A DNA stretch of 64,000 bases, from contig NW_008805063.1 in the NCBI RefSeq assembly GCF_000004825.1, positions 496,857 through 560,856 on the forward strand. Reading direction: 5' to 3'. Position numbers and translations under genes: made by a program. Under the pieces are notes generated by a model. That model was given only the letters and a program-made list of their open reading frames with translations, was not told the DNA's origin and made no database searches. This document shows positions 3,325-63,702 of the stretch, one piece after another. The first letter of the stretch is position 1. Each line of letters begins with the position of its first letter. This DNA comes from Heterostelium album PN500 (Eukaryota; Evosea; Eumycetozoa; Acytosteliales; Acytosteliaceae).

Positions 3325-5253
<1,929 letters not shown>

Positions 5254-7186: not shown

Positions 7187-9148
7187 CTACATTGATTTCC
7201 ATGGTACTACTTCATTGTTATATGAATAGTTTTCAAATTCTTTCATTGTTCTGTCAAAGTAGTCGTCGGAAGTCGACACACCCATGTGCATGAAATCGTG
7301 GTACCAAGACTTCATACCGTGGTATGTGATGGTCTTGAGAGTGTGACCCATCATCCATTGGAAGTCTTTGTTGAGCATCATCTTTGCCCAGCCAAAGGTA
7401 CGTGTCATCAGCTTGATCATGCAGAGCATCTGGTAGAAGTGCGACCAGCACAAGTACTTTGGGAGGTTCAGACGTTTGTGTCCAAACATACAGACGGTGA
7501 TTGCCTTGTCGTAGTCCCACGACGAAGTTGGACACCAACGACCGAGTAGCTGTCCTCCACGATGATTATCCATGAATCCTACATTCAGTCCTTGCTCGTT
7601 GATGTAGTCCATGACGCCAAGCATACGATCGCGGAATTCAATCAGTCGGTAGTTGTTCTCAGCAAACTCTGTGGCGAACACCGGACACAAATGGTACTTT
7701 CCGAGGTAGGCAGGCAGTAGGATTCCAAAGTATCCAAGCGATTCGACGTACACTCGCCACGACATGATCGATGCGTTACCCAAGTGGTCGGAGTGGCTCT
7801 TGATCAAGTGATTGTTGGTTTGTGTGATGGCTCTGATGAATTTGTCGAATGCAACCTGACGAACTTTGGTGGCTTCGGAATTGCCTGCCAAACGATGCTT
7901 GGTCAGTTCGGTGAGACACTCACACTCCATTGCAATCATAACCATACCGGTCGAGTAGAACGGATCAAAGATGGCAGCGGCATCACCCAAGACAGCCCAA
8001 TTATCCTCGGAAAAGAATGTTTTCGAAGTGTGAGCTAATCTTGGCCATCTATGGAAATCAACAACCTCACCACTCTTTATAATATTATAGAGAATCTTTT
8101 GATTGTTTTCCAAAAATGACATAAATTTCTCCATTCTTCAAATTAAGCAATTTTAATATTAATATTATTATAAATATATATTGTTTTAAAATAATTATAA
8201 TTTTACTTACGAATTAAATTCACTTGGTTCATATTTATCACGATGATATGATACACCAATGGAAAAATCATGGGAACCTCTTTCAATGGGGATCATCCAA
8301 ATCCAATATCCTGGACCGAAGAAATGGTTGGTTGCATAGTACCAACTTGCAGTGACACTAGGATCGTTGAATTCAAACAGCGATTTGTCAGTGTTTTTAA
8401 CACGCAGCCAGGTCGAAGCATTCTGAAGACCAAATAGATACTTTGGATCCTTGAGAACATTGTCAGTTCTGGTACCAATGATAAAGTTACGACCACTGGC
8501 ATCGGCAATGTAGTCGGTGGTGATGGTGATACGCTCAAGTGGCTTCTGGTCTTCGAATCGATCCTCCTCAGAGAGCATCTGGATATCGATTGTTTTGATA
8601 GAGTCACCTTTACCAATGTCCACCTCCTTGACACGTCCATGATAGTAGACCACACCTTGCTTCTGAACCATCTGAATCAAGTCCTTCTCGATCTTTGATC
8701 GATTCAATTGGAATGCCTGAATATCTGGATTCTTGATGGCCCATGTCGAGTAGTAGTCAGACATGGAGTCGGTTTTCTTATTGTCCTTTGGCCAATGGAA
8801 TTGCAAAGAAAATTTCGGTGGTTGATTCTCGATCAGATAGTCTTGTAGTTCCAACTCTTTGGCAAAGAACATTCCACTGATTTCCACAGTAGATTCACCC
8901 ACCTTGTAATCTTCGGCCAAGTTATTTCTCAAAGTACTTCTTGGATCGATGATGGCAACACGCTTATCACGAAGTTCTGGAATTTTCAAGAGTAAATGAC
9001 GTGCTGCCGACAGACCAGCTATACCACCTCCAATAACTACCACATCGTAATGTTTATTTGGTGGTGCTGCTGTTGCCGACATGTTTTTGTTGGTTGCCCT
9101 GAATGAGGAACCATTCATTCCAATGGAAAAATCATCTAATGCTTCCAT
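7187..9148 (-). CDS. Flavin-dependent (tryptophan-halogenase-type) halogenase, ChlA-like
   Basis: Two exons, 9148..8211 and 8135..7187, join in phase (EFN-S-MEKF) to give 628 residues. The N-terminal Rossmann motif VVVIGGGIAGLSAA (G40-G45) binds FAD. YKVGEST (81-87) and a lysine in PPKFSLQFHW (K112) match the region that carries the catalytic lysine in PrnA/RebH-type enzymes. WIWMIP at 282-287 is the WxWxIP halogenase signature that blocks monooxygenase activity. VLGDAAAIFDPFYSTG in exon 2 is the second FAD motif. Such enzymes use reduced flavin, oxygen and chloride to chlorinate aromatic rings. In D. discoideum the flavin halogenase ChlA chlorinates the polyketide precursor of DIF-1. The gene points away from the Steely PKS that starts at 12596, with no recognised gene between them, so a role in halogenating that polyketide is a reasonable inference. 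Orthology to chlA itself was not tested. Confidence 0.88.
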
Positions 9149-12100
9149 TTTCTGAAGAATTCCAATATCTAAATATTAAAACTAATTCTTTCAAAAACCA
9201 GTTCTTTTGAGATAGGTAAAGAATATTGGAGGAAAAATAAAATGAAAAAATAATATTAATATAAAATCAAATTTATACAAATAACTAATTACAACAAGGA
9301 AATTTAAAAAAATATAATAATTGAAACTTATATCTTCAAGATCAATTAATTTAAAAGATATGAATAAGTTTAAAGATATTTTTATATATTTCCCAAATTA
9401 TCCATTGTATCCGATGAGAATTTTAAAAAAATTTGATAAAATTATAAAGATACAATGGGGTGGTTATGAATATCAAAATATGTTTGTTATTTTTGTTTTT
9501 AGTTACATCATTAATGTGATAAATTACTTTTTATGTAATTAAAGTGGGGGGTGTGTTGAGGGTATTGGGCTTAAAAAAAAATATATATTCCACTTACAAT
9601 GATGAGTAATTTATAAATAAAATTTATGTAATTGATCGAAGTATCCTTTTAATTATAAAGAGACAATAGAAAATACGTTTTTACAATAATAAATATAATT
9701 ATATATATAAATAAAATTTTATTTAAAGTTTGTAACTTTATTTGTTTAAAATAATACAAGTTGTAATGTTTGTTTGCTGTAGTCCAATACGAAATGATCC
9801 TATTTATAATGTTCTTCTGTGTCTTCCAGCTCAAATAATTATCTTTGAATTTTTATTTGAAAACGTAAAGTGTTAATTTAAACGACCACTTTTCAGAGTG
9901 GTTGATGGTTTTTTATTATCAAAAATAGATTTAGAGACAGATCTTATAAACAAGTTCAACAAAAATTCATTGATGCTCTATTGGTTGGATGGATCTATTT
10001 CTTATTACTTATATAATTTTATTTAAAAGTTGCACCAATGAGATTATGAATTTCATATTAAGGAGCAGCTGCATAAACATTTTTAAATTGATTTGTTTTG
10101 TTGTGGCTGATTCAATGACTATCCATTTCACTGATGCTTCCAATGTTTTGAGTTTTGAAGATAAATTGTACTTTTGGAAAACCACCTTTCTTGTTGTTTT
10201 TATTTTTATTTGTTAATGTAGTACATCAAGGAAACTGATAATTTAACAAGTTTGTTTAAAATTGGAAGAATTATACAAATGTTCAAAATTAAAATAGAAA
10301 AACCTCCATCTTTTTATTATTTTTAATAACAACAGTCGATTGAAATGAATCGACAATCATCAGTCCAAATTCTAAAAATATTTTTAACAGATAATATGAA
10401 GTGGTTGATTTTTAGAGTGTAAAAAAACACATATTAATTAATAAATAAAAAAAATTGTTTTTGAAAATTTGAATAGGTGTTTTTTTTGCTGCACCCAATC
10501 ATTTTTCGATTTAATTTGAAATCTGAGTGGTGATTCTGTATTAAAATCTTTTTTGTACTATGCAGAATGATATTTCATTACCTTTATTTATAAATTTATA
10601 AATAAAAATTAAATCGTTGAAAAATAAAAATCACTAGTCTGGGAATACATTCATTCATTTATTTATTTAAATAGGAAAAAAGAACTTATTTGGTTCTGTG
10701 TAGGTGCAAATGGGGTCTTGAACTATCAATGTATACTTTAACATATGAAAAGTCATTTTATTAAAGTATTTTATGCAAGGCAATGTGCAGTGTGATACAA
10801 TAAAAAAAAATAAAAAAAAGAGGTTATATAAAAAAAAATAAAAAAAAACAATGTTAATTAATTCTCAATTAATTAATGTGGACTATAATTAATAATGAGG
10901 GAAGTTAAGTTGTAGTGATTTAAAAAAAAAATTAAAAATGTGGGTGATCTTTATCAACCTTTTCTAATCCAAACTACTACTACTTTTCTTAAAATTATTC
11001 ACCTCAACTTTATTGGAAAAACAACAACTTTTTAGACTTGTAGAACGATGTGAGGAGGGTCTAAATGATTTTCAGATGTAGAAAACACCAACTATTTTTA
11101 AATCGATAAATTTCACGGTCTTGGAATCGATTCAACCTTACAGACTTTGAATTTGATTTTCAAAGATTTTTATATTCCAGAGTGTTTCATCAATTACAGA
11201 ATATCCTAAATGGACTATCCGGTCTATTAATTGATGTATCATTATGAGAAAACCTACTTTACCATAGACCCTACTTTTTAGAAATGGATCATTCTATTGG
11301 TTTACAACCACTACTGGACTTAACAACAAATGATTTTATTTGTTTTGAAATTCTATAGTGTTTGCTAAACTCTATTTATATAGAAGGTTTGAAGTTGAAT
11401 ATTATTCAAATATTATTAACTTATTAAAATTACTATACTTGTATATTCTTATTATTATTCTTTGTAGATATAATTATTGCCACCTACTCTCTTTAATTAG
11501 TTTGTCTGTCGTATTTCTAAATTATATCCTAATCAACAATCTTTCAAGTATTCTCTATTTATCACAATCTATAGATAAATACTCTAATTATATTATCAAT
11601 ACCCAATATAAAATTACTTATTCTATACCATACCTTCAAAATATAACATCATATCTTGAAATTTGTTCGATAATCTTATTGTCAAAGAATAAATTCTATT
11701 TGTATCTTCCTAGATCTTTATTATTAAAAAATATATATAATAAAAAACAAATAAAAATAACTATTCGTTTTTAAATACAAAAGTGTTGAATCATACCACA
11801 ATATAATAAATCAATAAAAACCCATGTATGTATAAACCTAAAAAAATCTAAAGATCATTTTTTTATCACAATGTATACGTATAAATTTTATTTATTTATC
11901 AACCAACCACATGTTCTCAATATATGATTATTATTTTAAAAGTGAACGATTTTTGACGATAACATATTTTCTTTGGATTCCACTGTAATATTTTAAATAT
12001 CAACTCTTAAATCGACCCATTACCACCAAAAGAAAGATAACCCTAATTAGATCCACAAGACACCCCACAATTATTCCCATATATATTTATTTATGCTTTC

Positions 12101-12595
12101 TACCATTTCAAGGAAGTTATACTTTTTCCAGTTTTCACTTATTTACCTCGTTACATCCAAAGTAATGTGTGAGAGGATTTGAGTTGGAATTTGGAAAAGT
12201 GGTTTCTATCTGTCTCTATAAATCTGATATAATTGTACATGTGTCTGTGTGTGTGAGTTATTTATAAATACAATAAAATAACAAGTTAAAAGTTACTATA
12301 TAAATATGGATTTCTATACTAGTCATATAATCTCTGATCTGTTCATTGTTTAACTTTAGAATCTCTCTATTATTAATTAAAGTTATCTTTATAAATAGAT
12401 TATTTAATACATAAATATTTTCTTGTTTATTTAACAAATAATTTTTCGTTTTCTCATTGTTGTTGTGTTTCCATATAAATATAACTTTAGAATTAATAGA
12501 ACACTCTTATTACAGCTTACCTATATTTATTAACTTGATTTTTTTTTTTTCAACAAAGAATTCATTCTTTAAAACAAAAAAAACACATTAAAAAA
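9149..12595. other. Long intergenic region between halogenase and Steely PKS
   Basis: About 3.4 kb of AT-rich DNA, with some less AT-rich patches near 9880-10320 and 10970-11340 that carry only broken frames. A 138-codon frame at 11358-11774 is very rich in Leu/Ile/Tyr/Ser and has no recognisable domain, so I do not call it. Short hairpins occur, for example GTCGATT/AATCGAC near 10335-10355. The last 300 bp upstream of the PKS hold T-rich stretches and an A-rich leader. It must contain both promoters of the divergent pair and may hold remnants of a decayed gene. Confidence 0.3.
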
Positions 12596-15500
12596 ATGTC
12601 AAGAAAAGAAGCTATCGCTATTGTTGGAGTTGGTTGTAAATTACCAGGAAGCATTTCAAACATCGATCAATTCTGGAGCGTAGTTGCCAATGGTACCGAT
12701 TGCCTTACAAAGATCCCAGCTGACCGTTGGGATGCAGATACCATTGCCTCAAAGGAATTTAAATTAAACAACAGAATTGGAGGATTTTTAGACAACATTG
12801 ACCAATTTGATCCACAATTCTTTGGAATGTCACCAAAGGAGGCAGCCCAAATAGATCCACAACAAAGACTTGTATTACAAGTAAGTAAAAAAAAACAATT
12901 TAATAATTTTTGTCAATACTTCTCTTACTAATGAATTCAATAATATAGGTTGCAATGGAGGCATTAGAAGATGCCAATATGTCATTCAAACAAATCAAAG
13001 GAACAAATGCTGGTGTTTTCATTGGATCGAGTTCGAATGATTATCAGAGAACAATGAGCATGGGTGAAATCAACCAATTCACCACCCAAGGTACCAATTC
13101 ATCGTTTTTATCCAATCGTCTATCCTACTTTTTGGATATTTCAGGTCCAAGTTTAACTGTAAACACTGCATGCTCTTCATCGTTGGTTGCAATCCATCTC
13201 GGTGCACAAAGTATTTGGAGAGATGAATGCAGAGTTGCTATTGTTGGTGGTGTCAATATCATTGCCAATCAAATCCAATCATTGGACTATGGTGAAGCTG
13301 GTCTTCTCAACACCGAAGTAAATGGTCGTTGCTACAGTTTCGACGATCGTGCCAGTGGTTACGTCAGAGCAGAGGGTGCTGGAATTTTAATCTTGAAAAA
13401 TCTTTCGGATGCCATCAAAGATCGTGATGAAATTCATTCCATTATCCTAAATACTGGAACCAATCAAGTAAGTTAAAAGAAATATAAATTATTAATATTA
13501 TTACATAATATTAATACTCAAATTTGTTTTTTTTAAATAATTCTATAGAATGGACAAACACCACAAGGTATAACTTCACCATACGCAGCATTACAAGAAT
13601 CACTTTTGAATAATTTGATGGAAGGAGCAAATGTTGTTCCAAGTGAAATCGGTTATTTTGAGTGTCATGGTACAGGAACTCAAATGGGTGATGCCAATGA
13701 AACAGAAGCCATCGGTAAGAGTATTGGTATGAAGCGTGAATCGCCACTCCCAGTTGGAAGTGTAAAGAGTAACATCGGTCATTTGGAGGGTGCCTCTGGA
13801 GTGTGTGGATTGATCAAGACCATCGCTTGTATCAAAAACAAAATGATTGCACCAATCTGTCCAGCAGGATTCGAAAAGTTGAATCCAAAGCTTGAATTTG
13901 AACAGTTGAATCTCAATGTACCAACTGCTCTTACCGAATGGAACGACGAACAACGTTTGGCAGTCGTAAATTCATTTGGTGTAGGTGGTTCCAATGCCAG
14001 TATTCTCTTGGCAAACTACCGTCATTGTCTAAAGAACTCCAGTGACTCTGTCGAATCCAACGGTTCACAAGAGGAATCTGGAATTTCACACATGGAAGTA
14101 TTCAGTGTATCCGTTAACTCCAACGATAAGGAACACTTGAAGCAACGTGTTCAAGACATGATTGACTATCTCAATGCCAATGGTGAACAGACCGTTCTCA
14201 AGGATATCTGTTACACCTCCAATGTCCGTACCAATCAATTGTCCAATCGTGTATCGTTCATGATTGAATCGGTCGAAGATCTCAAAGATAAACTTCAACA
14301 GTTCCTCAGTGTTGAAGAGGATGATCTTCCATCGACTGTCTTCATGAAGGACAGCAGCAGTGCTGAGACATTTGGAACCAAGAAGTTGGCATTTGTCTGC
14401 TCGGGTCAAGGTCAACAATGGATCTCCATGGGAAAGGAGTTGTTTGACAGTTCACCAATTTTCCGTGCTGAATTTATGAAGTGTTCCAGCTTGTTCCAAG
14501 CACTCTCTGGCTGGTCGATCATTGACAAGGTATTCGACTCGCGAAACACCGAAGCCATTCACGACACATGGTTGGCTCAACCAGCTATCTTTGCCACTCA
14601 AGTTGGTATTTGCGCTGTTTTGAAATCGGCTGGTGTTGTCCCTGCATCGGTCATTGGACATTCACTTGGTGAAGTCGTTGCCGCTTACCTCGCTGGAATC
14701 CTCTCCATCGAAGATGCCACCAAGTTGATGTGGGTACGTAGTCATCTCCAAAACAAAACAACTGGTACCGGAAAGATGTGTATTGCCGTCGTCTCAAAGG
14801 AAGACATTCTTGCTGTTGCCGAGAGATACTCTTACACCAACAAGATCTCCATTGCCGGAAACAACTCGACCAAGTGTGTCGGTATCTCAGGAAGCAGTGC
14901 ATCCATGGATGCATTCATGAATATCATGAAGAACGAGCACATTGCCTACAAACCAATTCGTATCAACGCTGGATTCCACAGCTATCTTATGGACTCTATC
15001 AAGGATGAGTTCTATTCACTGTTCCCAAAGATCGAGCATCGTGCTCCTCAAATTCCATTCTACTCAACCACCAATGGAAAGTTGATCGATGCATCCAACT
15101 ACAATTTGTTGGGAGTTGACTACTGGTGGTCAAACATCCGTGAGACCGTAATGTTCAAGGAGGCATTGGGAGAGTTGGTATCAAATGAGCAATTCGATGG
15201 ATTCGTTGAGATTTCATCGCACCCAATCATCTCATTCTTTGTCAATCATATGATCCGTGAGAGATCCACCAACCATTTCATTGTTCCAACAATGTCACGT
15301 GATTCCTCCAACTTTGACACCTTGATGACCCTGTTCTCAAAACTCAGTGTCAATGGCTATGAAATTTCATGGGATGCTATCTACCTCCCACGTCGCCACA
15401 TGGCTATCAAGTTGCCAGGTCGTCGTTGGAACATGGATTCCTACTGGGTAGAATCCACACAAGCCAAAGTCGATCGTATCGATCTCCCTAAGAGCGCTTC

Positions 15501-18500
15501 ACTCACTCGTAAGCTTGTTTCTCTCACCCCATCGTTTGAGATTCGTTTGGACAACCCAAGATTCTACTACCTCGCTGACCATCGTATCCAAAACCAAGCA
15601 ATCTTCCCATATGCCCTCTACCTCGAGGTGTTCTATGCTGCCATGAGCGAACTCAAAGATCAAATGCCAGCATCACACTTTGAATTGTACGACTTTGAGA
15701 TCAAGACAGCACTCGAGATCGACGCCAAATTCACCAATGTCGTCCAAATCAACTTCAGTTCCGACTTGACCAAGTTTGAAATCGGTAGCATCGTTGACAC
15801 CACTGTTCCAATCAAGTGGACAATCCATGCATCGGGAAAAGTTGCTCACGTCAACTCTTTCAAGGTGAAATCGACCAACAATGGAAATCCTCTAATGAAC
15901 GCAATCAACTCTGCCAACAGAATTGTCAAAGCCAAGGATTTCTACCGTAGTATCACCGCACTTGGTTACAACTACGGACCATCTTTCCAAGCACTTGTTC
16001 GTTCCGCCATTTTGGACAGCACCTCACAAGTTTCAGAACTCCAACTTCCATCCACCTCGGACCTGGAGAAGCATGTTACTTCTGACTTTGCTTTTATTCA
16101 TCCTTCTGTGATGGACGGTGTATTCCAATCTTGTTTCACACCAATCGATCATAAGAGAGAAGGTCTCTGGATCCCACAGACATTCGAAAAGATGTCAGCC
16201 AATCTAACCGCACCAATCGATATTCGTACTCCAATCTACTCGATTACAAAGATCACCAATTTCAAAGACAAGAACACCTTTGTCTGTGACATCGCTGTTA
16301 CTAAAGACAATGGTGAAGTCATCTGCAAGTTTAGCAATATGACAATGAAGTGTATTGCCAGACCAACTCAGAAGGATATAACACTCGGTGAACAACTATG
16401 GAGATACCAATGGAAAGAAGGTTCTCACGAAGGACGTGTGGATATCAACCAAATGAAATTGGATGGTCATTTCAATCATACCTTGATCTTCACTGGTGAC
16501 GAAGGATCGCCTCTCACTAAGAACTTGGTTGAATACATTAAGGAGAATTACAATTCCAGTGCCAACAATATTGTCATTGTCACCAACGGTGAAAGTCTAA
16601 CACAACGTCAATCGGAGCTTGGTCAAGTTATCACTTCGCCACTCAACAAGGATGCCAACTACTCCCCATTGTTTAACAAACTAAAGATGCTCAACCCAGG
16701 TAAATTCTGGTCGACTGTTATCCTCCCGGATTTCTTCAAAGCCAATGTCAACCAGCCAACCTGTGAATCCGTTGAAGAATCATACGCTCGTCTAATGTAT
16801 ATTCTCCAACAAGCAAGCTCCAATGACTTCTCTGGAAGAATCACCATGATTTCAAAGAGTGGACAGGTTGTAGAGTCGTCGGACCTCGTTGACTACACCC
16901 ACTACTCGTTAGTCGGTCTCTTGAGAACCTTCTCCAATGAAAACTATAATTTCTACTGTTCGATGATCGATATCGACAACTCTACTGCACCACTCGATTG
17001 GATGAGTGAGTTGTCCTGTTTCGACACCAAGGGTGAAGTTGCCTTTAGAAATGGAAAGCGTTTCACCTACGACTTGGTCAATAACCAATCACTTGGCGAT
17101 GCCATTGTCAATTCCAATGCAAAGGCAGACCGTCGTTTCCAAGTGGATATCAGTGATAACGGTGTCATTGCAGATATGAAAATCAATGAAACCAAACGTC
17201 ACCAACCTAAAGCTGGACAGGTCGAAGTCAAAGTAGATATCACATCGCTCAACTTCCGTGATATTCTAAAGACACTCGGTCGTGACTATGATCCAAACCA
17301 TCTAACAACAATCGGTGACGAGTTTGCTGGAACAATTACTGCTGTCGGTGAGGGTGTCACTCAATTCGCTGTTGGTGACCAAGTTTTCGGTGTCTTTATG
17401 GCTCGCTCCATGTGTTCCTACATCACTTGTCCAATCGATTTGGTATTCAAGATTCCAAAGGGATTGACACCAGAACAAGCCTGTACCATTCCAATTACTT
17501 TCTTGACTGCATGGTATTCAATTGTTGTCCAAGCCAACCTCAGAAAAGGTGAGTCTATCCTTATCCACTCTGCTGCAGGTGGTGTCGGACTTTCCGCTGT
17601 CCAAATTGCTCGTTACATTGGTGCTGAAATCTTTGTCACCGTTGGTACCGAAGACAAGCGTGAATACATGGAAAAGACAGTCGGTATTCCAAGCTCAAAC
17701 ATTATGAACTCTCGTAACTCCAGCTTCTACAAGGACATCATGAGCAAGACCAACCAACGTGGAGTCGACGTTGTTCTCAACTCACTCTCTGGCGAGCTCA
17801 TTGACAAGTCGATTCTCTCGCTTGCCAACTACGGTCGTTTCGTTGAAATCGGTAAGAAGGACATCTATGCCGACTCCAAGATTGGATTGCTCCCATTCAG
17901 AAACAATCTCAGCTATTTGGCTGTTGATGTCGCTCAGATGACAGTGAATAGAGTTGCTTACTTGGCAGAGATGATGAACAATACTTTGATCCCATTGTTT
18001 GAGAGCAAGGATCTTGCTCCATTGCCAACCAACACCTTCACCATTAGCCATGTTGTTCAATCGGTCCGTCATATGTCCACTGGAAATCATATTGGAAAGA
18101 ACTTGGTTAGTTGGAGTGACCTCGAAAAGGCAACAACAAACGACTTACCAATTCACTTGGACAGTGAGTCAACTTACCTCATTACTGGTACCGGTGGTTT
18201 GGCATTGGTATTTGCTCAGAAGTTGGCAAATCTCAACGCTCATCATTTGGTATTCGCTTCCAAGAACGGTGCAGATTCCGATTTGAAAAAGAGATACTTG
18301 GATATGTTAGAGGAAGTCGGTGTCAAGGTTGAGGTTAAGAAATGTGATCTCGCCGATCGCCAACAAGTCAATGACTTACTCAGCGAGTATTCTTCATCAC
18401 TCAAAGGTATTTTCCACACTGCCGGTATGCTCTCTGATCAATCGCTACAGAATCAAACATTGTCAACCTTCAACATTCCATTCCACTCGAAAGCAAACAG

Positions 18501-20718
18501 TGCTCTTCACCTTCACAACTGTTCGATGGAATTGAATTTGAAGTTGGATTACTTTGTAACTTGTGGATCGATTATCACCCCCTTCGGTAAGCCAGGACAG
18601 TCTAACTATGCCACTGCCAATCGTTTCGTTGAAGGTTTAACATTGGATCGTCAACGTCAAGGTCTAGTTGGAAGCTGTATCCATTTGGCACCAATCCCAG
18701 AGATTGGTATGTCCGCCGAAGAAAAGATTGCTCAAGGTCTGAGAAATGTTGGTCATACTCCCTATGACTCTTTGGACGCTATGTGCGATGGCATTGCTGA
18801 GAGTATCAGTGCACGTGCTCAAGACAAGGTTGTTGTCTACTGTGACATTGATGTCAATAAATGGATGGTTGCATTCCCAGGATTCCGTCTCAAGAAATCG
18901 ATCATCAAGTCATTGGATCCAAACTACACTCCACCAGTTTCGCCAGCTGCTCTCAAGGGTAACGACAGCATTGAGAATTCACTCAAGAAGATCGTCTCTG
19001 ACATTATGGAAATCAAGCTCGAAAAGATCGATGCATCCTCCAACTTCAAGGATCTTGGATTGGACTCTCTATTGGCATCGGAACTTACCAACTCGATCCA
19101 CAAGAAGTTCAGTGTGTTTGTGCCATCACTTTCGCTACTCGATCGTAAATCAACCATTAGAAGTCTAGTCGATAAGATCAGTCCAGACGCCGCCGCAGAT
19201 ACTATGCAACCACTCTCGATTAGAACCGAAGATGAAGTAGTACGCAAGACCATCGAGAAGATTGTCAATAAGCAATCGTCATCATCTTCATCAACTCTCC
19301 AGAAGAAACAACCAATCCCAATGGTTAACTTGAATGGAAACGGTCCTATCAAAGCACAACCATCCACTCTCAAAGCACAACCAATCAAAGCTGCAACAGC
19401 CAACATCGCTCCAATTCCAGAGAAGCGTCCAATTGATTTGATTCCATCACCACTTAATTTATACAAGAACAACCATTCCAATAACAATAACAATAACTCA
19501 CAATCGCCAATCGTTGTATCACCATCGCCAAGCTCCAACTCCTATGTATCGGTCACCAACTCGCCATACTTGAGCCATACATTGCCAGTGGCAGCACCAT
19601 TGATTAAACAACCCACTGGCTTGACAACTGCCGATGACTATGCCACTGCTATCTATGCCATCGAACCACTTGCAGCTCCATTCTGTACAGACCAACAGAC
19701 AGTCTACAACCACTACAAAGATCATACCACAGAGTCAACCTTTATGAGAAATGTCTACAAGAATTGCAAGATCAAAGAACGTTATATGTTTGTTGACAGT
19801 CATGACCACATGGCATTGAACGCCATGCCATCGTCCAAGAAGAACACAATGTTTGCCGATATCGTGCACGACACCGTTGTGAAGGCAGGTGAACGTATCC
19901 TCAAGAACAACAATGTCGATCGCTCACAGATCTCACATGTGATCGGTGTCACCTCGACTGGTATATTCGCACCGTCGATCGATGCCATGCTTTGTCGTGC
20001 ACTCGGCCTCGATGAAAAGGTAGGAAGAACCATGATTAACTTTATGGGTTGTGGTGCCGCCGTCATTGCTCTGAGAACGGCCGTCGCCTACGCCAACAAA
20101 CGTCCGGGAACCTACGTGCTAATGATGTGTGTAGAATCGTCCTGCACCAACATGGATCTCGATCCAAACGATCGTGGTGACATTGTATCCGGATGTATCT
20201 TCAGTGACGGATGTGCCGCTTCGCTGATTACCTGTCAGCCACGCGCCAACCTCGTCGGCAAGCTCGAGTGCATCGACGATCTCTCCTACCTGATGCCCGA
20301 CTCCAAACATGCATTGGAGATGTTCATGGGTGACAGAGGTATCGATTTGGCACTACGACCGGAACTATCGGCCTGTATCGAGAAACACATTAGATCGACT
20401 ATCGAATCGTTCCTTGCCAGCCACGGAATGGAAGTGCCAGACATGGATTTCTGGGCAATTCATCCGGGTGGTCGTCGTATCCTTGAAGCCGTTCACCAAG
20501 GTTTGAATCTCGGACCCGAGGAAATGGCAGAGTCGTACGACGTCATGAAGTGGTACGGTAACATGGTATCTTGTTCCGCAATGTACGTACTGAAGCGTAT
20601 CATCGAGAGAATCATGAATCTCAAGAATGAAAACGGTAAAGGATTGAACTACGGTATGGTAATGGCATTCAGTCCTGGTGCATCAATTGAAGCAATGCTC
20701 TTAAAGATGATTAAATAA
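12596..20718 (+). CDS. Steely-type hybrid polyketide synthase: KS-AT-DH-ER-KR-ACP-type III PKS
   Basis: Three exons in phase 0 (12596..12880, 12949..13467, 13549..20718) encode 2657 residues. KS: Cys170 in VNTACSSSL, His308 in ECHGTGT, His346 in NIGHLEGASG. AT: Ser640 in GHSLGE. DH: His946 and Asp1124 in DGVFQ; the usual HxxxGxxxxP reads HRIQNQAIFP, with Asn at the Gly. ER: GDEFAGTI and NADPH motif HSAAGGVGLSA near 1606. KR: TGTGGLA near 1815, with Ser and Tyr in GSIITPFG and QSNYATAN. ACP: Ser2108 in GLDSL. After a low-complexity linker comes a chalcone-synthase-like domain with Cys2436 (FMGCGAA), His2573 (WAIHPGG) and Asn2606 (WYGNMVSCS). The type I part builds an acyl chain on the ACP; the type III part extends and cyclises it to an acylated phenol. 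No methyltransferase domain is visible between DH and ER. With a halogenase next door it looks more like StlB (DIF pathway) than StlA, but the product is not provable from sequence. Confidence 0.95.
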
Positions 20719-34631: not shown

Positions 34632-37600
34632 ATGAATAATAAAAATTATTTATTATTTATATTTGTAATATTATTATTACATATATTGGGACTTTCGAAT
34701 GCTCAAACATATGTACATCAAAGTATTTATACGATGGGAACCAAAGGGTGCGCCGGTACACCTATTTTGGTAAATTCTTTTAGAATTGGTCAATGCTATA
34801 AAAGAAGTGACACAAACAGTATTAAATATGTTTTGGTTTCCAGCACTGCTTTCTATATTATGGCCTATACCGATGCGGTTTGTACACAAAACCCAGTTCA
34901 AAATACAAATTTCCCAGACAACTATTGTTTTGCTGAAGCATATAAATTTCAATTGAAAAATACCTATGTTTCACCATCACCAGGATACATTTATTTTGAA
35001 AGATGGCCAACGTAGGTATCAATTATCAAATATTTTCCAAACTATGCAATCACGTCGAAAAAACAAAAAAAAAAAAAACAAAAACAACAATGTGTTTTTT
35101 GTCTTGTTTGTTTTTTTCTTTCCACAAAAAATATTAACTTTTTATTTCTCAGTAATTCTGCTTGTACTCAGGGTGTAAATAACAATAGAGGTGTATTTAA
35201 GCCAGGTATTTGTGCTTACTCAGATGGTCAAAGTGGTTTTATGATTGGTACCGCCGGTACTGCTACTACTGCAACGATTGCAACTTCCAATGAAAAAACC
35301 TGTAAGACATTGTCTTCGAGCCAGGCATACAGTTTAACATGTGCGAATAACGCTAGATACATTATGAATGCTTTCACAGCACCCGCTCTCACTATATCTT
35401 TTGGTGCAGTGAAGCTAAACTCTTACAACTCCATTACTATCCCAGTGAGTCTGACTTGGCCATCGCCAATCACTGTCAATGTCGACTACAATGAAAACGG
35501 TGGTGCATGGAAGGATGTCCCCGCTTGTGCAACATTGTCTACCGGTCAGTCATGCACTATCACCGGCATCTTACCACAGAGTACTGTCATTGTTAGAGCT
35601 CTTATCAATGGTGAACAACCTTTCGGTGGTACAAGCAGTGCTCAATCAGCAGCTTACAAGATGCCAATACGTAAGTTAGCAAACTATTTTCAAAAATATT
35701 TCATAAATTAGTATTAACATTCTTCTTTTGTTCTTAATAGTCGATACTATGAAGACAGTTACCATTGCAGCTAGAACAACCAAGACTGTAACTGTTGCTT
35801 ATACTTCGAATTCTGGTGTGAGTGGAACTACTACTTTTGTTGTAAAGTCAACTGCTGGTACTGTTGGTACATGTTCATTTACACAATGTGTTATTTCAGG
35901 ATTGAATCCAGGTCAAAGCATCACTGCAACCGTTAATGCAGTAAACCACGGTACCAATTCAAATACGATGACCGCCACTGCTACTACCTACACAGCTTTA
36001 ACCACACCATCTCTGTCAATTAAAAACACAATTAACTCGATCACCGCAACATACTCTGCGACCGGTGGTGTTCCATCGCCAGCAACAACTTTCCAAGTGC
36101 TATTGAATAATGTAGCTCAATCGTGTTCCGCTTCACCATGCACAATGTCTAACTTGGCAACACTACAAACCTACAGTGTACAGGTTAGAGCAACCAATGA
36201 CGGCACCACTCTTTCATCTGCTGTTCAAAGTGTTAAGCTATGGAATTTGATGACCACACCAACATTGACTGCAGTTGCTTATACAAGAAGAGTTGTTCTT
36301 TCCTTTGATGCAACTGGAGGTGATCCTGCTTTGACTCGTTTCAGTATTACCAATAATGGTGCTGCAGTTGCAGGTTGTCAATCTCTCCAAACCAAGACTT
36401 GTACTGTTTCTTCTTTGAATCCTGGAATATCGTATGCTTTTGTTGTCACCGCTACTAACGGTGCTACTGTTCTCTCCAAGACTCTTAATCAAGCAACCTA
36501 TCAAGATGTTGCAACTCCATCTCTAACTCTTACCAACACAATCAACTCTATCACTGCAACATATTCTGCAGTCGGTGGTATTCCATCGCCTGCAACCACC
36601 TACCAAGTATTATTGGGTGGAGTAGTTCAATCTTGCACTGCATCGCCATGCACAATGTCTGGTTTAACAACACTCCAAACCTATACTGTACAAGTAAGTG
36701 CAACCAACGACGGTATAACATCACCATCTACTTCAAAATCTGTTAAGCTATGGGACTTGATGACTGCACCAACATTGACTGCAGTTGCCTATACAAGAAG
36801 AGTTGTTCTTTCCTTCGATGCAACTGGAGGTGATCCTGCTTTGACTCGTTTCAGTATTACCAATAATGGTGCTGCAGTTGCAGGTTGTCAATCTCTCCAG
36901 ACCAAGACTTGTACTGTCTCTTCATTGAATCCAGGAGCGTCGTATACTTTCGTTGTCACTGCTACTAATGGTGCTACTGTTCTCTCCAAGACTCTTAATC
37001 AAGTAACCTATTTGGATGTCTCCGCTCCTACAATCTCAACTACATCTATCACCACTAAACATATTGCAATAACCTACGATGCTGTTAACGGTCTTCCAAG
37101 CGGTTCTTTGTTTACTGTCAACAGTGCTGGTGTTGATGTACCAGGATGTATCAATACTGCTACCAAGTCATGCACTATCACTGGATTGAATGCTGGTACT
37201 GCATACACTATCAAAGTAACTGTTACCAACGACGGTCTCTCTGTTCCAACTACTCAAACATTAACAACAGTGACCGCTGTAACAACTCCCGCTATCACTA
37301 TCTCACAAACGGGATTGTCACTCACCATTAAATACACAACACAATACGGTTATGGTGCATCAAGTTATGATGTTCTTGTGAATAATGTTGCTGTCTGTTC
37401 GGCCACTTCCGCTCTCCAATGTGTTTTCAACAATGTCGTTCTCGGAACCAAATATGACGTTCAAGTTAAAGTAACCAATGACGGTGCTTCTAAAACTGGT
37501 ACTTTATCCTATCAAACTATTGCAGATACCATGAAGACATTGAAAGTAGATTCATACACTACCAAATCAGTTACATTCAGTTATTCATCAAATAGCGGTG

Positions 37601-40600
37601 TTCAAGGAGTTACTACCTTTGAGTTTACGATCAATGGTTCACCAGTCACATGCCCTTCATTTACTCAATGCACTGTTTCAGGATTCACACCAATTTCACC
37701 AGGTTCCACACTTACCATCGTTGGTAAATCAATCAACTATGAAAATGCATCACCAACAATGACAATCACACAGAAGCTCTATGATGTAGTTGCAGCTCCA
37801 ACTCTCACCGTTACCAACACACCAACCACAATAACAGCTACTTTCTCAGCAATCGGTGGTATTCCATCGCCTGCAACTACCTACCAAGTTTTATTGAATG
37901 GAGTTGCTCAATCTTGCACTACATCACCATGTACTTTATCTGGTTTAACAACACTCCAAACCTACACTGTTCAAGTCAGCGCAACCAATGACGGTACTAC
38001 CACTCAATCACAAGTTGTCTCTGTTAAATTGTGGGATCTAATTTCAAATCCAACACTCACTGCTTCAATGCTAACTAAATCTGGTGTACTTTCATTCGGT
38101 AGCGTTGGAGGTAACCCCGATCTAACCAGATACAACATTAGCATAAATAATACTCCATTCAAAGATTGCCAATTGATCAAGGAAACTACATGTTCTCTTC
38201 CCTCGTTGAATCCAGGTACTACCTATACCTTTGTAGTGATTGCTATCAATGATGGTAAATCTCAACAAAAAGGATTGACAGCTTCAACTTACTCTGAAAT
38301 CAGTGGTGGTTCTATCACTGCATCTTCAATCACTACCAAGTTGATTACAGTCAACTTTGGTGTCACTGGAGGTGTACCTGGTTTGACAAAGTATTCAATC
38401 ACCTACAATGGAGTCAATGCACCAGACTGTATCGATATCTCAGCCACTAGCTGCACAATCAAGGATTTGACATCTGCCACTACCTACGCCATCCAAGTCA
38501 CTGCCACAAACGACCAAAAGACATTGCCATTCTCCAACTCCTTCCTCACCTACACCAAGATCAATACTCCAACTCTAACTATCATTGGTAAACCAACATC
38601 GATCTTTGCACGTTTCTTTGCCACTGGCGGTGTTCCAACACCAAGCACAACCTATCAAATTCTTTTGAATGGTGTTGTTTATCCTGGATGTTCTGGTACT
38701 GCCATTACATGTACCATTTCCGGTTTGACAACTCTCGATAACTACACTGTACAAGCTGTCGCAACCAACGATGAAACAGTCACCCAGTCTGCAGTTCAAG
38801 AGATTACTCTTTGGGATTTGATGGGCGAGCCAATCGTCACTGCTACAGCTCTAACCAAAACTATCTCGCTTGTCTACGAAGCACCGGGTGGAGATCCTCT
38901 CAAGACATCGTTTATCGTCAAGATGAATGATGTAGTTCTAACTAATTGTGTTGAATCGAAACCAGATGCCAGCGGTACATGTCTACTTACAGATCTTAAT
39001 GGTAACACTACTTATACATTCTCTGTGACAGCTTCCAATGGTACAGCCAGTCTTACTTCTACATTGGATGTAACCACCTATCCTTTGTTATCCGATCTTC
39101 AAGTTCAACTTGACCATATCAACACCAGAGAGATAGCAATTAGTTACTCTAGCAAGAATGGTCTACCAGATAATACTACCTATGATGTTCTATTGAATAA
39201 TCAACCTGTGGTTGGATGCACCCAAACTCAAGCAACTACATGTTTATTCACTGGATTGGATGACGGTGTCGATTATTCTATCACTGTCAAAGCAACAAAC
39301 GACCAATTGACTTTGGAATCTCAACATTTCTACACCACCTACATGGAAGTTTCTGAACCAATAATCACAGTTTCACAGACATCAATCGAATCATTTGAAA
39401 TCAAATACTCTACAGAACATGGCATTCCACAAGGAACAACTTACGATGTGATTGTCAATGAAACATTGGTTTGTTCAAATACCACTGAATTGACATGTAT
39501 CTATGATCAATTGGTTCTTGGATCAAATTACAACATTAAAGTTATTGTTTATAATGATGAAGTGTCAAAGAGCAATGATGTTTATCACCAGACCTATTCC
39601 AACCCAACACCAGTGGTATTGAACACATTCCCAACTGCCTCAACAATTCAAGTTTCATGGAATGCCAGTGAGAACGGTTTGCCACAATCAACTATCTACA
39701 CCACTGAAATTACCTTTAACTCTGTGGAATGGAAAACAATCTGTTTGAAATCAACCGAACTTTCATGTAATATTCATGGACTGGCATATGCAACCAAATA
39801 TACAATCAGAGTCACTGTTTCAAATTCCTTCTACGATCCTGTAGAATCCACCACTGATGCCACAACATTGTTGAACAACTTGGATGATAGTTCCTGCAAG
39901 AAGAATGAAACAGCACCAATTTGTTCAAGTCATGGTGTTTGTGACAAGGGTGAATGTCAATGTTCAGAAGGTTGGACCGGTATTTACTGTCATATCGATA
40001 ATACTAACAATAACAACAAGAATGAAACAATCACACCAGATCCAGACAAACCAGTAATCATCGTTGATAACAATGGAGTAAACTATAGATTTGAACTTCT
40101 TTCAGTGGAAGAAGTTGACCAATTATCTACTCCAATTAAAACACTCGATCTTTCAAAGGTCTCATGGTCATTGGATTTCACAAGAAATGAATCAGTCACA
40201 CATCCAACCACCGGAGAAACACTCACTGAAAAGACATTTACATATTCATCAAACAAGACAACAATTGATGGTATCGATTCACTTTCGATTTCATTCATTC
40301 AATATCAAGCTCCAAAGGACTCGTCTTCTTTGGCTGCAAAGAAATACCCAATTGCATTTGCCGGAAAAGAATATCAAATCAACATTGGATCGCTTAAATT
40401 CACTATGGTTATCAACAAGTGGCCATTCGAATCCAAACTCAACTCTCTGGTTCTCTCGACAAAGATTACCAATCCGGTTGGTGCAGTCGATGAGTGCGGT
40501 AAACTCAAGTCACCATCATCCAATGATACAGAGGTATCGTCATCCAATGGTATCACAACATTCAATATTGGTGATGGCAGTGGAAACTACGTTGTTGGTA

Positions 40601-40968
40601 ATCTCCTAAACATCCTTGTTGTCGATAGCATTCCAAGATTAGCCTCTCACAACTATGCCAAAAAGGATGGTTTCATGGTGATCAACTCACTCATTCCATA
40701 TTTTGAAAGATCTGCTGTCGTCGATCCCGATATAGGTTTGATTCTTTCGCCAAAATCCGACGCCAAGTCAGGAAAATGTGGAAATACTCAAGAAGAGAAT
40801 AGCAATTGGAAAGTTATTGTAGGATCTGTTGTCGGTGGTGCTGCTGGTGTTGCTTTGGTCGCAGCTACAATCCTTTTAATTAAAAAGAGAACTAAAGCAC
40901 AACGTTACAACGATAGAGTTGCTGAAAAGATTAGAAATGCTGGAAATTCTCGGACTAACAATTTATAA
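34632..40968 (+). CDS. ComC-like surface protein: signal peptide, Fn3-like repeats, EGF-like and supersandwich domain, TM
   Basis: Three exons (34632..35011, 35153..35670, 35741..40968) join in phase to 2041 residues. Residues 1-24 form a signal peptide ending GLSNA. A Cys-containing N-terminal domain follows. Then come many beta-sandwich repeats of about 85 residues with the fibronectin-III-like signature SLNPG-x-Y-x-F-V-V-x-A-x-N-G/D. An EGF-like module with six Cys lies at about 1684-1717 (SHGVCDKGECQCSEGWTGIYC). The next about 240 residues (YRFELLSVEEVDQL to FEIR-like strands) resemble the supersandwich domain of ComC and related dictyostelid surface proteins. One transmembrane helix at about 1990-2012 (VGSVVGGAAGVALVAATILL) and a short basic tail end the protein. 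Such proteins are thought to act in cell contact or signalling during aggregation. Repeats come as alternating pairs, two of them nearly identical. Domain calls are by eye; ligand unknown. Confidence 0.8.
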
Positions 40969-63629: not shown

Positions 63630-63702
63630 GGGCTTGTAGCTCAGATGGTAGAGCGCTCGCTTAGCATGCGAGAGGTAAAGGGATCGATACCCTTCTAGTC
63701 CA
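63630..63702 (+). tRNA. tRNA-Ala (anticodon AGC)
   Basis: The 73-nt sequence folds as a full cloverleaf: acceptor GGGCTTG with CTAGTCC (one T-T mismatch and a G-T pair), D arm with the A-box TAGCTCAGATGG, anticodon stem CTCGC/GCGAG with loop TTAGCAT and anticodon AGC at 63663-63665, and T arm AAGGG/CCCTT. The T loop is ATCGATA, the A54 variant often seen in eukaryotic tRNA-Ala, so the B-box reads GGATCGATACC. There is no intron and no encoded CCA. Sequences of a non-LTR retrotransposon begin within a few tens of bases downstream. Confidence 0.96.

Follow-up and report, generated by a model that had tools for sequence, protein, structure and literature searches.

The locus examined here raises the question of whether a flavin halogenase gene and a Steely polyketide synthase (PKS) gene of Heterostelium album (Polysphondylium pallidum) PN500 form the counterpart of the stlB-chlA pair of Dictyostelium discoideum and, if so, how the pair is regulated, what it makes and where it came from. 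We analyzed a window of 64,000 nucleotides (C2:496857-560856; 33.8% GC) from the genome of 32,926,113 bases in 39 contigs. The halogenase gene (minus strand) and the Steely gene (plus strand) lie back to back in the window and are transcribed divergently from a 3447-bp spacer. An earlier note on this DNA had pointed out that the same two enzyme types make and chlorinate the DIF-1 skeleton in D. discoideum. Orthology to StlB and ChlA proved to be the best reading of the two genes, and the locus is very probably the stlB-chlA pair of P. pallidum.

In D. discoideum, stlB and chlA are reported to be adjacent and to have a common promoter region, with dmtA not adjacent to the pair (PMC9489281). The main idea of the earlier note is thus already in print for that species and is not new; what is new here is that the two genes are paired in a species distant from D. 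discoideum and apparently of group 2. Absence of the linkage from sister species, which the note had named as evidence against its idea, does not hold for D. discoideum. The stlB promoter fragment described for that species is 2831 bp long and includes 30 bp of chlA coding sequence (PMC9489281); from this PCR fragment, we infer a head-to-head order with a spacer of about 2.8 kb, compared with 3447 bp in the window. Among the texts covered by a limited literature survey, we found no published statement on stlB-chlA adjacency in P. pallidum.

The halogenase was modeled as two minus-strand exons, exon 1 at 8211..9148 and exon 2, the C-terminal half, at 7187..8135, which are joined across a GT-AG intron into 628 amino acids in a single frame; for both genes of the pair, the exon borders are predictions from GT-AG sites and open frames. 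Flavin halogenases of the ChlA type carry an FAD-binding GxGxxG motif, a WxWxIP motif and an active-site lysine motif. All three were present in exon 1, as GGGIAG, WIWMIP and KVGES starting at residues 40, 282 and 82, respectively, and a GDAA motif was present in exon 2. The Pfam family PF04820 scored 33.9 bits on exon 1 (cut-off 21), with no single stretch passing alone, and exon 2 by itself matched no Pfam family. The best PDB match of the protein was the halogenase PltA, aligned to residues 32-382 across both exons (E 1.3e-11). These results agree with the minus-strand flavin halogenase with GGGIAG and WIWMIP motifs described in the earlier note. Protein searches of the genome with each exon returned only the exon itself, from which the window gene is predicted to be the genome's single ChlA. 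This single-copy claim rests on the searches with the two exons, because the PF04820 family search of the genome missed the window halogenase. A PF04820 place at C2:485057 was considered as a second halogenase and rejected, its best match being FAD_binding_3; by eye, it looks like a geranylgeranyl reductase. A single ChlA is reported as conserved across Dictyostelia (PMC7259674).

The Steely gene was modeled as three plus-strand exons (12596..12880, 12949..13467 and 13549..20718) encoding 2657 amino acids in the order KS-AT-DH-ER-KR-ACP-CHS. The start of the KS lies in exon 1, its active-site TACSSS motif at residue 168 in exon 2, and the rest of the KS, with all the following domains, in exon 3. 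Across exons 1-3, the KS start aligned with the KS of another Steely gene, on contig C4, at 40% identity. Pfam was run on the open reading frame (ORF) from 13618, which is most of exon 3 only, and identified the end of the KS, the acyltransferase (AT; 14392..15357), dehydratase (DH; 15526..16368), enoyl reductase (ER; 17212..18099) and ketoreductase (KR; 18169..18696) domains, the acyl carrier protein (ACP; 18982..19173), and both halves of a type III PKS (chalcone-synthase) domain (19678..20712), all on the plus strand. No methyltransferase domain was found in this part at E 0.001. The plus-strand Steely hybrid PKS of the earlier note was therefore borne out, with type I and chalcone-synthase domains; its ORF from 13618 is only most of exon 3, and the modeled gene begins at 12596. 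Judged by the consensus motifs of PKS domains, active-site motifs were present for the KS, AT (GHSLGE), KR, ACP (LDSL) and chalcone synthase (Cys, His and Asn motifs). The glycine of the usual DH motif HxxxG was absent, the window DH reading HRIQN (HxxxN) versus HKVKG in the C4 gene, and the second DH motif, DGVFQ, was present. A type I part of KS-AT-DH-ER-KR-ACP with a C-terminal type III PKS is the StlB architecture, and the same list, KS-AT-DH-ER-KR-ACP-PKSIII, is given for Dd- and As-StlB in a figure legend (PMC4058090).

A search of the genome with PF02797 returned three places, the window, C4:573036 and C39:131457. The last was rejected as a third Steely because it is an FAE1-type elongase, so two Steely genes were found in the genome, in the window and on C4, both hybrids of type I and type III PKS. 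The C4 Steely carries a methyltransferase domain, which the window gene lacks in the part scanned, and the two chalcone-synthase domains are 27% identical. Against D. discoideum Steely1 (StlA; PDB 2h84), the C4 domain scored 504 bits and the window domain 132 bits, Steely1 being eighth in the PDB list of the latter. By its score and its methyltransferase domain, the C4 gene is identified, at the level of sequence, as StlA. With StlA so placed, the window gene is assigned to the StlB type by elimination, by its domain order and by its neighbour.

The top PDB match of the window chalcone-synthase domain was 4b0n (185 bits), named polyketide synthase III and presumably brown-algal. Better scores against seven PDB sequences than against Steely1 are expected for StlB, because the two steely genes of one species are described as only distantly related (PMC3188802), and would also be expected for a third kind of Steely. 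On this ranking, the window gene could be orthologous to StlA or represent an independent Steely of a third kind, in which case the pair would form a new pathway and not the DIF-1/CDF one. We consider this highly improbable, since a clear StlA lies elsewhere in the genome, the third PF02797 place proved to be an elongase and left no further Steely among the places found, and the window gene, showing no methyltransferase domain in the part scanned, adjoins the only halogenase found. The assignment to the StlB type stands beside the conservation of StlB across Dictyostelia reported by a study that built trees of these proteins (PMC7259674). No halogenase match was found in C4:572501-590000, a stretch that takes in StlA and the region upstream of it but no more than about 0.5 kb beyond its downstream end. 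Upstream of StlA on C4, frames at L027:1165-3437 resemble, by eye, an Argonaute/Piwi protein.

The spacer between the two genes (9149..12595; 3447 bp, 23% GC) is a putative shared promoter region. The earlier note had described 3.4 kb without a recognisable gene, and indeed the longest ATG ORF of the spacer has 75 amino acids, and no Rfam match reached the gathering score in 9000-12700; the sole tRNA of the window is at 63630. Using a consensus that we take to be the G-box of GBF, we counted 5 merged G-box-like sites in the spacer versus 1.5 expected (p 0.019; 1000 Markov simulations). This enrichment was rejected as an argument for co-regulation, as one of eight other compared stretches, with roughly chosen borders, was denser. 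Motif density in the spacer is slightly raised and not distinctive, and the spacer sequence supports co-regulation weakly.

The position and the published expression of the two genes bear on the same point. P. pallidum is credited with 11,694 genes (PMC7259674, Table 1), and a simple estimate from this count, one halogenase and two Steely genes gives a probability of about 9e-5 for head-to-head adjacency by chance. In Acytostelium subglobosum, another group 2 species, As-stlB and As-chlA, orthologues of the window genes, are reported to rescue D. discoideum mutants and to have very similar expression profiles (PMC4058090); that paper makes no statement on their adjacency. The genes could be StlB and ChlA and yet lie close together without shared regulation, as the length of the spacer and its undistinctive motif content would allow. 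We regard this as quite unlikely in view of the small chance of such adjacency, the same adjacency in D. discoideum (PMC9489281), and the similar expression of stlB and chlA reported for both D. discoideum (PMC9489281) and A. subglobosum (PMC4058090). By analogy with these species, shared regulation of stlB and chlA is likely, and the co-regulation that the earlier note had read from the linkage is supported by the D. discoideum pair, published as adjacent and as sharing a promoter region (PMC9489281).

In the proposed pathway, the type I half of StlB would build a reduced short acyl chain, for which hexanoyl has been proposed in D. discoideum. The C-terminal chalcone-synthase domain would add malonyl units and cyclise the chain into an acylphloroglucinol, the ring of which ChlA would then chlorinate. 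Opposite transcription from one spacer would place both genes under common developmental control, and the likely product would be a dM-DIF-1-like compound, a CDF-type chlorinated dibenzofuran, or both. For the window species, we infer substrate, product and co-expression from D. discoideum and A. subglobosum.

We then considered O-methyltransferases. The family PF00891 has at least 27 places in the genome, a family-level count in which dmtA is not singled out. None of these places lies in the window, nor did an O-methyltransferase appear among the 19 of 46 window ORFs of at least 100 amino acids on which Pfam was run, as the earlier note had said of the window. The note had also proposed a check of the flanks for a dmtA-like methyltransferase; the nearest PF00891 place found on the contig was C2:620882, about 103 kb from the Steely gene. 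The pair thus shares an intervening region and has no PF00891 place in the window, which corresponds to the D. discoideum arrangement with dmtA elsewhere. On another contig, PF00891 places occur at four positions in a stretch of about 8 kb (G000:C27:137442-145062), which is probably a small O-methyltransferase gene cluster. Neighbours named by Pfam among the 19 scanned ORFs were ubiquitin, polysaccharide deacetylase, WD40, P-type ATPase, TFIIB-repeat and ankyrin proteins, and others. Judged by these neighbours, the gene cluster suggested earlier looks limited to a conserved pair of two genes.

Because reports of DIF-1 synthesis are confined to group 4 and probably P. violaceum (PMC7259674), a chlorinated acylphloroglucinol or dibenzofuran is the more likely product of the window pair than DIF-1. 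All four groups are reported to have orthologues of StlB, ChlA and DmtA (PMC7259674), and on that basis the pair might make DIF-1 itself in the window species. This is unlikely given the reported distribution of DIF-1, the reported failure of a group 2 dmtA, that of A. subglobosum, to complement (PMC4058090), and the lack of a PF00891 place near the pair, yet D. discoideum dmtA is likewise not adjacent (PMC9489281).

The gene chlA is reported to have been acquired from prokaryotes (PMC4931340). A search with exact peptide patterns, a method that detects only close relatives, covered 84,980 prokaryote species genomes and returned one relative of the window halogenase, in a Verrucomicrobiales metagenome-assembled genome (L032). 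This bacterial flavin halogenase (L032:7977-9827) was 38% identical to the window protein across 598 aligned positions, almost the full length, and differs from it in adjoining two further halogenase-like genes, the three lying side by side (L032:7977-13834). When it was used as the query, matches at E 1e-40 occurred in 5 of 386 genomes from the same order, and 3 of the 5 held close relatives (55-100% identity), a set that includes the genome of L032 itself and one copy split into three pieces. Of 288 genomes sampled from the phylum, one, its own, matched at E 1e-60, and viral contigs gave no match. In a 14-row tree, in which some genes were represented by partly duplicate rows and the split copy was left out, the window halogenase joined L032 and L037 with support 89/98, and long branches were flagged. 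Since the rows are few and long branches were flagged, Verrucomicrobiota is only a tentative candidate for the donor group.

In each of the 3 genomes with close relatives of the halogenase, a type III PKS place also exceeded the cut-off, always on a different contig from the halogenase. The assemblies are fragmented, and this means a real distance only for L032, which lies at least some 68 kb inside both ends of a 221-kb contig; in the other two genomes, the genes may still be close. Because the bacterial type III PKS places lie on other contigs, the halogenase/chalcone synthase pairing was probably made in amoebae. Bacterial origin of the pair as a unit was rejected, as no linked type III PKS was seen beside the bacterial halogenase relatives (3 genomes in fragmented assemblies). 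Against the window chalcone-synthase domain, the type III PKS of these bacteria scored 139, 128, 102 and 69 bits, with no match at one further place, and StlA scored 102 bits across its intron. Among plasmids, a tblastn search with the protein of exon 3 gave matches in 3199 records, of which none reached 80% coverage, and the best 3 of the 3199 all matched the type I part of that protein.

Groups 1-2 and 3-4 form the two main branches of the dictyostelids. P. pallidum has been placed in group 2 (PMC10559540), and two branches of two groups each are described (PMC5113120). Because the pair is found in group 2 and in D. discoideum, its distribution, on that division of the branches, suggests that it dates back to the ancestor shared by all living dictyostelids, barring two separate origins. 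The known D. discoideum arrangement in so distant a species suggests that selection has long kept polyketide synthesis and chlorination under joint control. We give an even chance to a fuller scenario in which a halogenase from a Verrucomicrobiota-like bacterium was joined to StlB inside amoebae, and the head-to-head pair has been kept since the dictyostelid ancestor, before DIF-1 signalling and the basal disc; the ancestral selected product would have been a defensive chlorinated acylphloroglucinol or dibenzofuran, and DIF-1 a later use in group 4. P. pallidum PN500 is reported to be transformable, with knock-outs possible, as done for dgcA (PMC10559540), and whether chlorinated polyketides ancestrally served as a signal or as an antibiotic is testable in this species.

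Two other ORFs of the window were noted. A polyubiquitin-type ORF with three ubiquitin stretches (Pfam) lies at 3792-4508, on the halogenase side of the pair. At 35749-40968, a 1739-amino-acid ORF with fibronectin type III, EGF and ComC supersandwich domains probably encodes a cell-surface protein.
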